This document shows, piece by piece, positions 45,591 through 52,734 of a DNA stretch of 64,000 nucleotides. Numbering within the stretch: the stretch's first letter is position 1; the number at the start of each line of letters is the position of its first letter. The notes beneath the pieces are model-generated. The model had not been told where the DNA came from and did no database searches. It saw nothing but the letters and a program-made list of their open reading frames with translations. The translations under genes were made by a program, and so were the position numbers. The DNA lies in NCBI RefSeq assembly GCF_020923435.1, contig NZ_CP087263.1, positions 3,367,970 to 3,431,969 of the forward strand, read 5' to 3'. This DNA is from Brevibacillus humidisoli. GTDB lineage: Bacteria > Bacillota > Bacilli > Brevibacillales > Brevibacillaceae.

Positions 45591-46793
45591 ATGGAACAAG
45601 TGATTGACATACGCGGACACATCATCCGTGACGACATTTTGAAAAAAATCGATGCTTCCGTCGTACAGTACAACGGTCGCTACCGTGTGCTGCAACTGGA
45701 GGTAGGGGATCAGGTGGATGATGAATCAACAGCCAGAGTGGTGCTAGACCTGCCTGAAGATAAGATCGACCTAATCCTGAATGAACTGGTAAACCTGGGC
45801 TGCAACATCCCTCGTGCCGAGGAGATGGCAGTCTTGAAACCAGCGGAAAAGGACAAAACGGTGCCCGACGATTTTTACTCGACAACCAACCATCCGACAG
45901 AGGTCTATCTAAACGGCAAGTGGGTCAGGGTAAAATATCAGCGAATGGACGCTTGTCTCGTCGTCAAAGGGGACGAGGTGCACTGCGTGAAGCTGCGCGA
46001 CATTCAAAAAGGTGACCTGATCGTTTGCGGCAGCAACGGTGTGCGTCTGGTCCTCCCGCCTACTGATGAGAAAAACGGTGAGTTTGCCTTTATGAACAAC
46101 GAAGTCAGTTCCGAGCGGCGAGTGGAAGTCGTCGTCAAACGGCTGGCCGAAGAGATGCGCGAGATTCGTCAGAGAAACGGCAAGATTGTGTTTGTAGCAG
46201 GCCCTGTCGTGATTCACACGGGTGGTGGAGAAGCTTTTCAAAGCCTGATCCGCAACGGATATGTAAACGCGTTGTTGTCGGGGAACGCCCTGGCCGTACA
46301 CGACATCGAACGGTCCCTGTTTGGCACTTCCCTGGGTGTCAATCTGGATACCGGTTCCGTCGTGCGCGGCGGGCATAAAAACCACATGCGAGCGATCAAT
46401 GCAATCAACCGCTCCGGCTCCATCGCGGAAGCCGTGGCAGACGGGACGCTGCAGGGCGGGATCATGTACGAATGCGTTAAAAACAGCGTCCCCTTTGTCC
46501 TGGCCGGCTCCATTCGCGACGATGGCCCGCTGCCGGACACACTGATGGATCTGATCGAAGCGCAGGCTCAATACGCTGAGCAAGTGGCAGAAGCCGAATT
46601 GGTGATCATGCTCTCTACCATGCTGCACGCGATCGGGACAGGCAACATGATGCCTAGTTGGATCAAGACCGTTTGTGTCGACATTAATCCGGCAGTTGTC
46701 ACTAAACTCATGGATCGCGGATCAGCGCAAACCGTCGGTGTCGTCACCGATGTCGGTCTGTTCCTTACGATGTTGGAAAAGCAGCTCTCCTAG
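45591..46793 (+). CDS. LOR/SDH (TIGR00300) family protein, possible nickel-pincer-dependent ornithine cyclodeaminase
   Basis: The 400-residue protein has an N-terminal LOR/SDH region (IDIRGHIIRDDILKKIDASV, DLPEDKIDLILNELVNLGC, residues 1-100), then a Rossmann-type C-terminal part with VFVAGPVVIHTGGGEAFQSLIRNGYVNALLSGNALAVHDIE (about 201-241 region) and VKNSVPFVLAGSIRDDGPLPD. This is the TIGR00300 family found in archaea and some bacteria. From memory, members act as ornithine cyclodeaminase and the family has been tied to the nickel-pincer nucleotide; that would fit the larC genes 4 kb away. It starts behind AAGGAGGAATAGGG. Confidence 0.8.
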   Translation: MEQVIDIRGHIIRDDILKKIDASVVQYNGRYRVLQLEVGDQVDDESTARVVLDLPEDKIDLILNELVNLGCNIPRAEEMAVLKPAEKDKTVPDDFYSTTNHPTEVYLNGKWVRVKYQRMDACLVVKGDEVHCVKLRDIQKGDLIVCGSNGVRLVLPPTDEKNGEFAFMNNEVSSERRVEVVVKRLAEEMREIRQRNGKIVFVAGPVVIHTGGGEAFQSLIRNGYVNALLSGNALAVHDIERSLFGTSLGVNLDTGSVVRGGHKNHMRAINAINRSGSIAEAVADGTLQGGIMYECVKNSVPFVLAGSIRDDGPLPDTLMDLIEAQAQYAEQVAEAELVIMLSTMLHAIGTGNMMPSWIKTVCVDINPAVVTKLMDRGSAQTVGVVTDVGLFLTMLEKQLS

Positions 46794-50794: not shown

Positions 50795-51763
50795 ATGAGA
50801 ATTGCCTATTTGGATTGCTTTTCCGGGATCAGCGGTGATATGACGCTCGCAGCACTTGTTGATGCCGGAGCTGATCGGGAAGAGATTGAACGTCAACTGC
50901 GAAAACTGCCGCTTGGCAGCTTCCGGATGGAGTGGCGAAACGTAGTGAAAAAAGGGGTTTCCGCCTTAAAAGTAGATGTGATTGATGAAGAGCTTTATCA
51001 CTACCATGCACAAGAGCACCAACATCATGACCACTCAGCGACACACGAGCATCACGGTCACGATCATGAACACCACCATGACCATGTCCATCAGCATCAT
51101 CAGCATCATCACGATCACACGCACGAGCACGATCATGGGCATCATCATGATCACACGCATGAGCATGATCATGGGCATCATCATGATCACACGCACGAGC
51201 ACGATCATGGGCATCAGCACGGGCACCACCATCACCACCATCATGCACACAGAGCGTACCGCGAGATCGTTGAGCTGATTCAGGCCGCCGGATACTCGCC
51301 GCGGGTAACGGAGCGGGCTTTGGCCATCTTCCAGGTAATCGGCGCTTCTGAAGCAAAGATCCATAACGTGCCGATCGATACGGTTCACTTCCATGAAGTG
51401 GGGGCACTGGACTCCATCGTCGATATCGTCGGGGTGGCACTGGCACTGGAAAACCTCAACATCGACACCGTCTATAGCGGTCCGATCCCAACCGGAAGCG
51501 GGTATGTCCGCTGTGACCACGGTTTGTATCCTGTACCGGCACCAGCCACATTGGAAATGTTAAAAAACATTCCGCTTCGTTTCACGACAATCGAAAAAGA
51601 GTTAACCACGCCTACTGGTGCGGGAATTGCCGCTGCCCTGGTCAAGCAGTTCGGCCCGCTGCCTGCGATGACAGTGGAATCGATCGGTTATGGTGCAGGA
51701 ACACGCGATCTGCCTGACCAGCCAAATGTGCTGCGTGTACTGATCGGACAGCCAAATCAATAG
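50795..51763 (+). CDS. larC: LarC N-terminal (LarC1) protein with His-rich insert
   Basis: The 322-residue protein has the LarC1 opening MRIAYLDCFSGISGDMTLAALVDAG (1-25 region) and later HNVPIDTVHFHEVGALDSIVD, GSGYVRCDHGLYPVPAPATLEML, ELTTPTGAGIAAAL and SIGYGAGTRD. Residues about 69-152 are a His/Asp/Glu-rich insert made of DHTHEHDHGHHH repeats, which should bind nickel. LarC puts nickel into the pincer nucleotide; it needs a C-terminal LarC2 part, made by ribosomal frameshift in lactobacilli. Here the frame ends cleanly after the N-domain and no LarC2 follows on this strand; it is on the other strand. Confidence 0.9.
   Translation: MRIAYLDCFSGISGDMTLAALVDAGADREEIERQLRKLPLGSFRMEWRNVVKKGVSALKVDVIDEELYHYHAQEHQHHDHSATHEHHGHDHEHHHDHVHQHHQHHHDHTHEHDHGHHHDHTHEHDHGHHHDHTHEHDHGHQHGHHHHHHHAHRAYREIVELIQAAGYSPRVTERALAIFQVIGASEAKIHNVPIDTVHFHEVGALDSIVDIVGVALALENLNIDTVYSGPIPTGSGYVRCDHGLYPVPAPATLEMLKNIPLRFTTIEKELTTPTGAGIAAALVKQFGPLPAMTVESIGYGAGTRDLPDQPNVLRVLIGQPNQ
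51113..51220 (+). repeat. Three tandem 36-bp units coding for His-rich repeats
   Basis: Units at 51113-51148, 51149-51184 and 51185-51220 each begin GATCACACGCA and code for 12-residue DHTHEHDHGHHH-type repeats. The near identity at the DNA level suggests recent expansion. Confidence 0.9.
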
Positions 51764-51765
51764 TT

Positions 51766-52734
51766 TCACATCTGCTGCGGTGTTTGGGTGACGGCGATCG
51801 CGAGTGCTTCCTGGTAGACCTGTTTTAAGGGGACTCCTGCCCGTTCGGCCAAAGCGGCACAGTGCGCGTATTCCGGGGCTACCTGCACTCGTTCACCACG
51901 CAGGTAGCCTAGCTTGACCGTCACTTCTCCCCATCTGGTCTCTACCTGACAAAAGCGGCGTGCCAAACGATGACAGACGACAGGAAAGTAGCGAACACCA
52001 AATGTGGTTGTCTCTCGAAACAGCAGCTCTTTCATCACTTCCAGTTGGCTGGCATAGCACATCACCTGGACCATCGTGCCCGGTCGCCCCTTTTTCATTG
52101 TCATGGGAAAAAAGGAGACATCATTGGCACCGGCGGCAAAGAGAGCGGACATCGCATAAGCCATCCACTCCGGGCTGGCATCGTCCAGATTCACCTGCAG
52201 CAGAAACATCGCTTCATCGACATGTTCTTCCGTGTGATTCCTCTGTTCATGCACGATAGATGGCCCATCGTCTCTCTGACAGAGCAGCAAGCCTACACCA
52301 TCCGCTTCCACCGCATGCAGCACGGTGCCTGACAGCATATGATCAGTCCGTGCTCCCCATTCCCGGAGCCACAGCAGTGCCAATGGCGAAAAGAGCTCTT
52401 CTGCTTGCTGCCACCTGCGCACTTCCCAACCGGTCAACAACGGCAGCCACAGTGCAGGAACGGACAGCGGCACCACCAGCGGCGTCACCGCAACCGAGAG
52501 ACTCCGACCAATCAGATCGGACAGTGTGTACAGCGCTGCTTCTTCCTCCTGCCAAAACCCCTCCTCCCCCTGTCTCCGATACGGAAGCGAAGCTTCCACA
52601 ATACGACTGAGCCGCTCTTCATGTGAAGAGGGGCTGCCGTCACCTGCCTTTACCTGCGAGAAGTCCAACTGCTTCCATGCATTCAACAGCCGCTTCAGCG
52701 TCAGCGGTCGATCACTATGTATCCAGATCATCAT
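51766..52734 (-). CDS. LarC-like protein: degenerate N-terminal half plus LarC2 C-terminal domain
   Basis: Residues about 175-322 match the LarC C-terminal domain: VNLDDASPEWMAYAMSALFAAGANDVSF with NLDD at 182-185, the FPMTMKKGRPGTMVQVMCY block, RETTTFGVRYFPV and ERVQVAPEYAHCAALAERAGVPLKQVYQEAL. Residues 1-165 keep only traces of LarC1, such as EEAALYTLSDLIGRSLSV against VGALDSIVDIVGVALAL and ELFSPLALLWLREWG against the ELTTPTGAGIAAALVKQFG region. The metal and phosphate motifs are lost. It converges on larC1 with two bases between the stops. It may supply LarC2 function. Confidence 0.72.
   Translation of the reverse strand: MMIWIHSDRPLTLKRLLNAWKQLDFSQVKAGDGSPSSHEERLSRIVEASLPYRRQGEEGFWQEEEAALYTLSDLIGRSLSVAVTPLVVPLSVPALWLPLLTGWEVRRWQQAEELFSPLALLWLREWGARTDHMLSGTVLHAVEADGVGLLLCQRDDGPSIVHEQRNHTEEHVDEAMFLLQVNLDDASPEWMAYAMSALFAAGANDVSFFPMTMKKGRPGTMVQVMCYASQLEVMKELLFRETTTFGVRYFPVVCHRLARRFCQVETRWGEVTVKLGYLRGERVQVAPEYAHCAALAERAGVPLKQVYQEALAIAVTQTPQQM

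Follow-up and report, generated by a model that had tools for sequence, protein, structure and literature searches.

The 64,000-nucleotide stretch of the Brevibacillus humidisoli genome analysed here, referred to as the window, contains two convergent genes that encode the LarC1 and LarC2 domains of LarC on separate proteins. The gene larC1 on the plus strand (50795..51763) encodes a stand-alone, intact LarC1 protein of 322 aa and terminates with the codon TAG at 51761-51763, and the gene on the minus strand (52734-51766, with the stop codon read from 51768-51766) encodes a second protein of 322 aa in which LarC2 is preceded by a probable decayed LarC1 domain. A spacer of two bases (51764..51765) lies between the convergent stop codons, and the coordinates given for the pair in the initial annotation are right. 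Within larC1, the segment 51014..51241 specifies a His-rich arm (about residues 74-149) that is apparent from the sequence and predicted to be disordered (pLDDT <50). In the minus-strand gene, the LarC2 domain comprises residues 174-318 (51781..52215) and matches the structure 6bwo_A (1e-26). The probable decayed LarC1 domain corresponds to residues 1-165 (52240..52734, minus strand), as delineated by the predicted order of strands and helices and by the register of the hhalign and HMM alignments. Residues 61-145 of this domain (52300..52554, minus strand) align over 88 columns with the C-terminal half of LarC1, and the Pfam family PF01969 (LarC) is aligned from residue 88 onward, starting at its position 162.

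The PF01969 scan of the whole 4.9-Mb B. humidisoli genome yielded two matches, both located at the 50795-52734 pair, and a third or complete larC gene is thus absent elsewhere. The genes larE (G000:C1:2830978-2831754) and larB (2830215-2830841) adjoin each other about 0.59 Mb from the larC pair, and LarA is encoded in the same genome at 2480572. A further gene of the window (45591-46793) specifies arginine dihydrolase ArgZ-like C-terminal domains together with a LOR/SDH N-terminal region.

The plus-strand protein was detected by the LarC1 model TIGR00299 (2.4e-66, 222.6 bits) above the curated cut-off of 90 bits, and it retains 53 of 54 positions with at least 93% conservation across 65 LarC1 rows. 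It covers PF01969 positions 1-235, and the LarC2 model NF052512 matched residues 177-293 of the minus-strand protein (5.7e-40, 136.1 bits; curated cut-off 50 bits), which agrees with the earlier view that larC1 ends without LarC2. PF01969 positions 162-375 were aligned with residues 88-307 of the minus-strand protein, and all 19 positions with a conservation of at least 93% across 69 LarC2 rows are kept. Residues 162-316 of the structure predicted for the fusion resemble the LarC2 structure (Z 12.7, rmsd 6.7, 129 aligned), the domain being designated the C-terminal domain of cyclometallase in the structure titles, and the fold search additionally revealed a structural resemblance of LarC2 to CutA and PII folds. 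LarC1 and LarC2 are both intact, each on its own protein, and LarC2 fusions such as that at 51766-52734 must not be tallied as complete LarC proteins.

LarC1 was detected in 20 of the 39 Brevibacillaceae genomes, which also constitute the order-level scan, and exactly these 20 genomes encode LarE and LarB over the cut-offs. The LarC2-bearing gene is convergent with larC1 in 19 of them, with the exception of one genome (G038) that contains a single fused LarC (L012) just after larE and larB. The gap between the two genes ranges from -4 to 113 bp in seven genomes, including that of the window, and from 600 to 1485 bp in twelve genomes, eleven of which contain an intervening open frame of at least 90 aa. 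In ten of the twelve wide-gap genomes, larC2 and larC1 are separated by an ORF of 183-196 aa that is read from the same strand as larC2; those at L059:9099-9668, L062:10304-10855 and L060:10000-10551 look DJ-1/PfpI-like by eye. Five genomes (G003, G011, G020, G030 and G035) contain larB, larE and both larC parts and gave no Lar_N (LarA) match; the NPN cofactor may serve another enzyme in these cases, and use by another enzyme is mentioned as a possibility for about 15% of genomes in PMC11796402.

The scan at the class level resulted in LarC matches in 90 of 299 genomes. According to our own count from the table, 46 of these 90 genomes encode a continuous LarC that is free of internal stops and spans PF01969 from positions 1-3 to 374-375. 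The initial annotation had regarded known LarC as one gene read through a frameshift; this applies to Lactobacillus plantarum, in which LarC is formed as one protein by frameshift, but not to these continuous frames. LarC1 is encoded apart from the LarC2-bearing gene in 33 genomes (own count), two of which (G128 and G232) also belong to the set of 46, while one genome with two pieces at contig ends (G279) was left out of the split count. Eighteen of the 33 split genomes show the convergent layout, namely ten Brevibacillaceae and eight from four further families (f8, f13, f23 and f31; these labels, as well as f7 and f35 below, are arbitrary numbers). In the remaining 15, the genes are arranged in tandem (two), divergently (one), on the same strand at a distance of about 4 to 44 kb (nine) or on different contigs (three). 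Accordingly, the convergent split is old and common to many genomes and not an event of this genome as initially implied, since the same pair occurs in 19 of the 20 LarC1-bearing Brevibacillaceae genomes and in the eight genomes of other families.

Among these eight, the LarC2-bearing protein has an N-terminal extension at L113, L117 and L118 and none at L111, L112, L114, L115 and L116. A comparison of ten sequences showed kinship with the N-terminal half of the window protein for L127 (1.2e-8) and L113 (8e-4), whereas such kinship was not found for the extensions of L117, L118 and L126. Other compositions of the LarC2 protein were also observed. At L114:5144-6271 and L115:4938-6032, convergent with larC1, LarC2 stands before a C-terminal extension that belongs to the DinB family by Pfam in L114 and looks alike by eye in L115, and at L126:5506-6417 LarC2 follows an apparent LarB fragment (by eye). 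A LarC1 frame of 2060 aa at L139 was rejected as a fusion, since it runs into letters read as X. Two genes appear to be broken by a frameshift or sequencing error: LarC1 is apparently interrupted in two frames at L116:5149-5987 (G085), and LarC2 shows an apparent break near its 3' end at L068:7992-8978 (G023).

For the profile and the phylogenetic trees, 20 of the 46 end-to-end fused LarC proteins were used (L012 and L092-L110); the trees additionally contain L137, L124, L010 and L011. In the LarC2 tree of 72 rows, most of the separately encoded LarC2 domains fall into one group of 43 (support 98/84), with the tandem LarC2 of G128, an orphan in G053 and three f7 genes placed outside. The 26 convergent rows and three orphan rows form a group of 29 within the 43, with support (87/77) that is short of firm. 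The LarC proteins of f7 and f35 are located close to the group of 43; L124 (G232) and L137 (G128) contain a weak yet recognizable LarC1 half joined to LarC2, with a best stretch of 50 bits, and the same genomes encode a better-kept LarC1. The LarC1 tree does not include L116 and L125, whose LarC1 genes are each split over two frames, or G106, G276 and G289. It is too poorly resolved to inform on the history of the pair, and one of its rows (L124x) is an artefact whose end branch has a length of 10.

The relation of the N-terminal half of the minus-strand protein (residues 1-165, hereafter the N-half) to LarC1 was addressed with sequence, profile and structure comparisons. The initial annotation had credited the N-half with only weak LarC1 similarity, and indeed a direct BLASTP comparison of the larC1 protein with the minus-strand protein gave nothing of note. 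When the N-halves alone were compared with Pfam, none of 21 members matched LarC (PF01969), and the five families that were hit were each matched by one member only; because of this result, the N-half is not filed as LarC1, just as a probable decayed relative. For the full-length proteins of the 22 LarC2-bearing genes in the family, the PF01969 match begins at positions 145-172, inside LarC1, in seven cases and at positions 226-241 in the remaining 15. The fusion profile, searched against the genomes with fused LarC proteins, continued past LarC2 into LarC1 in seven rows, starting from profile positions 97-101. With shuffled N-half columns as the control for the overrun of local alignments, extensions of at least 40 columns were obtained in 4 of 24 fused LarC proteins with the real profile, and none of 60 shuffles extended more than 3 of the 24. 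The score gain summed to 204 bits, compared with up to 215 bits in the shuffles. This line of evidence is weak on its own, because the count barely exceeds that of the shuffles and the score gain lies inside their range.

A profile-profile comparison of 24 N-halves with 65 LarC1 rows by hhalign yielded a score of 24.3 over 88 columns, with an HHalign probability of only 6%. None of 200 shuffles scored as high (best 23.2), and the reversed profile scored 13.8. With a wider LarC1 set the score was 23.6, which none of 120 shuffles reached (best 16.9), and with the fused LarC1 rows only it was 20.9, compared with 20.4 for the best of 100 shuffles. Narrower profiles failed: the Brevibacillaceae LarC1 profile alone scored 13.8 against the N-half, less than its reversed version (16.6) and the highest-scoring shuffle (20.8), and produced nothing more useful than a 12-column match in another run. 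In a comparison of the N-half with five weak or decayed N-halves of f7 and f35 alone, 20 of 120 shuffles scored as high. The three most eroded of the f7 and f35 N-halves, taken alone, gave no significant LarC1 match, and a LarC1 ancestry is therefore not claimed for all N-terminal extensions in other families.

The secondary structure elements predicted for the N-half (E2-7, H13-21, H35-53, H58-74, E80-83, E86-89, H94-100, E105-109, H117-125, E137-144 and E147-153) occur in the same order as those predicted for LarC1 (E3-7 and H14-23, then H169-190, H205-220, E225-228, E231-246, H250-255, E261-263, H273-282, E292-301 and E312-320), with near-equal spacing from H94 and H250 to E137 and E292, respectively. 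According to the predicted structures, the LarC1 elements missing from the N-half are helix two, the strand pair, and the His arm with the helix that follows it. The fusion structure was predicted from four sequences (A3) with no LarC1 row among them, and the model is of middling quality, with a best mean pLDDT of 74.6, a pTM of 0.47 and a range of 49.8-74.6 over five models. The register of the N-half on LarC1 agrees within a residue or two among Pfam, hhalign and the predicted structure. Searches of known structures did not extend this agreement: the HMM profile of the fusion matched LarC2 only in the PDB sequences, and not the LarC1 region of 12bi; the best 50 matches listed in the fold search with the fusion model comprised LarC2, PII, CutA and other folds and no LarC1 structure; and the fold search with the LarC1 model remained without a match (best E 0.82). 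The LarC entries 12bi-12bl were found by sequence and are absent among the fold matches listed.

The N-half could also represent an unrelated domain attached to a stand-alone LarC2, in which case the two proteins would still constitute a split LarC. This reading would account for the missing Pfam match of the N-half alone, for the low HHalign probability and the failure with narrower profiles, and it has parallels in other LarC2 fusions such as LarC2-DinB in L114. We regard it as unlikely, since Pfam, hhalign and the predicted fold give one register, no shuffle in the two larger hhalign comparisons (0 of 200 and 0 of 120) reached the observed score, the N-half is positioned N-terminal to LarC2 as is LarC1 in fused LarC proteins, and weak but recognizable LarC1 halves are present in the neighbouring group of the LarC2 tree. 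The N-half is therefore probably a decayed LarC1. Its LarC1 origin, and with it the loss of the LarC1 motifs, is supported but not proven: the profile and structure check brought out an agreeing element order on the one hand, and an HHalign probability of 6% and 21 N-halves without a PF01969 match on the other.

Of the LarC1 positions with a conservation of at least 93%, 26 could be mapped by hand from the alignments, and the N-half, taken as a decayed LarC1, retains the residue at six of them. The division of labour with a dead N-domain that the initial annotation had proposed is consistent with this most likely decayed state and with the intact LarC1 (53/54) and LarC2 (19/19) on separate proteins, although the LarC1 origin of the N-half, on which it depends, has the standing given above. 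The mean identity over 210 pairs is 0.34 for the N-half and 0.64 for the LarC2 part. The dN/dS ratio ranges from 0.18 to 0.40 in the N-half and from 0.05 to 0.16 in LarC2, as determined for the 7 of 210 pairs that were close enough to measure; these pairs derive from 21 loci, the window itself not being among them. The LarC2 gene broken near its end (G023/L068) was included in A1 and the dN/dS pairs but in neither of the trees nor the N-half alignment. Thus, the N-half evolves faster than the LarC2 part, yet it is under constraint, and none of the 22 aligned Brevibacillaceae proteins (the window protein and 21 relatives) lacks it.

With respect to the history of the pair, an ancestral fused LarC would have been duplicated, whereupon one copy would have shed LarC2; in the other, LarC2 would have remained, and the LarC1 domain would have become smaller and lost its conserved motifs. 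Duplication, LarC2 loss and LarC1 decay would have taken place before the families parted. Such a history fits the weak LarC1 halves of L124 and L137, which lie near the group of 43 and are accompanied by a better-kept LarC1. The N-terminal domain was perhaps lost more than once, because the extension is present in three and missing in five of the eight convergent genomes outside the Brevibacillaceae.

LarC2 is the CTP-binding domain of LarC. As outlined in PMC11796402, LarC puts nickel into P2TMN in a CTP-dependent manner, by which CTP cytidinylylates P2TMN and the phosphoanhydride is hydrolysed once nickel is in. We consider it fairly probable that the B. humidisoli pair represents a two-protein LarC derived from a duplicated fused LarC, composed of LarC1 and of LarC2 behind a decayed LarC1 domain serving as docking scaffold. 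LarC1 would perform the nickel and substrate chemistry and LarC2 the CTP chemistry, and the two proteins would assemble into a LarC1/LarC2 heteromer. In this heteromer, the decayed domain would keep the LarC1 core fold and stand in for a LarC1 in the oligomer, so that as a docking scaffold it would hold LarC2 beside a working LarC1. Docking by this domain would not be needed everywhere, since five convergent relatives (L111, L112, L114, L115 and L116) have no such domain before LarC2.

The pair might instead be a plain split LarC that forms no lasting complex of LarC1 and LarC2, with the N-half as passive baggage in the course of being lost. The fast evolution of the N-half, its lack in the five convergent relatives and the Oceanobacillus LarC2 of 158 aa that stands alone are in line with such a process; the presence of the N-half in all 22 aligned Brevibacillaceae proteins and its dN/dS values below 1 argue against it, and we judge it rather improbable. 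No support was found for an artefact of assembly or inversion in this genome, and such an artefact is refuted by the search of other genomes, which revealed the same layout in 18 other Brevibacillaceae and in the eight genomes of other families.

Three Brevibacillaceae genomes (G031, G032 and G033) have kept the LarC2 fusion (L077:9847-10887, L040:9227-10180 and L041:1167-2156) and contain no LarC1, no LarE or LarB over the cut-off and no Lar_N match to LarA. The orphan genes occupy the same position as the pair elsewhere, between a nuclease-like gene (by eye) and an M23 peptidase gene. The orphan LarC2 domain is changed at three of the 19 conserved positions (D184E, the charge-reversing R259E, and E288D), none of the three varies among the 69 other rows, and the orphan stem branch of the LarC2 tree is long (0.65). 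Among the three genomes, dN/dS is 0.05-0.08 in the LarC2 part, indicating strong purifying selection, and 0.24-0.28 in the N-half, and two of the three differ by a dS of 0.14-0.25. Since the genomes are related, the orphan state probably reflects a single event observed in about two lineages. The orphan fusion is most simply read as having a role outside NPN synthesis, and it is conceivable, if tentative, that the protein composed of decayed LarC1 and LarC2 has gained a role of its own that is separable from NPN synthesis. It may have turned into a nucleotide- or metal-sensing protein, because the LarC2 domain matches CutA and PII folds by structure; a gene in slow loss is the rival explanation. 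In the orphan form the pathway is absent and the gene is still conserved.

The LarC proteins of Moorella thermoacetica and Synechocystis are single chains. The B. humidisoli proteins are homologous to them, but the domains are distributed over two proteins whose genes converge, and the LarC2 protein probably carries an additional, decayed LarC1 domain; a fused LarC exists within the Brevibacillaceae as well (L012 of G038). The LarC2 domain of the window protein is similar to that of the L. plantarum LarC (6bwo, 6bwq and 6bwr; 1e-26), whereas the B. humidisoli genes lie on opposite strands and involve no frameshift. In Oceanobacillus (L008) the genes are likewise separate but co-directional in the order larC1-larB-larC2, and the LarC2 protein lacks the N-terminal domain. 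In pseudoenzyme subunits the fold is kept and catalysis is lost; the presence of a decayed copy beside an active one is alike, although here the decayed copy shares a polypeptide chain with the active enzyme's partner domain. The LarC proteins of M. thermoacetica and Synechocystis are described as active nickel insertases in PMC11796402. In the account of Anaerobutyricum in PMC7702098, larC1 (EHLA_1342) and larC2 (EHLA_1341) are named, but larC2 is given the enzyme name of LarB, so this case is unsure. No description of a convergent larC pair or of a decayed LarC1 domain was found in the titles and abstract openings of the open-licence papers that the literature searches listed.

The convergent pair provides a natural test of how LarC works, since each half can be produced and mutated by itself and the two then combined, with no need for an artificial cut. 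The decayed domain would separate the structural from the catalytic parts of LarC1, and the pair suggests a metal-insertion enzyme in the course of passing from one chain to an enzyme and pseudoenzyme pair.
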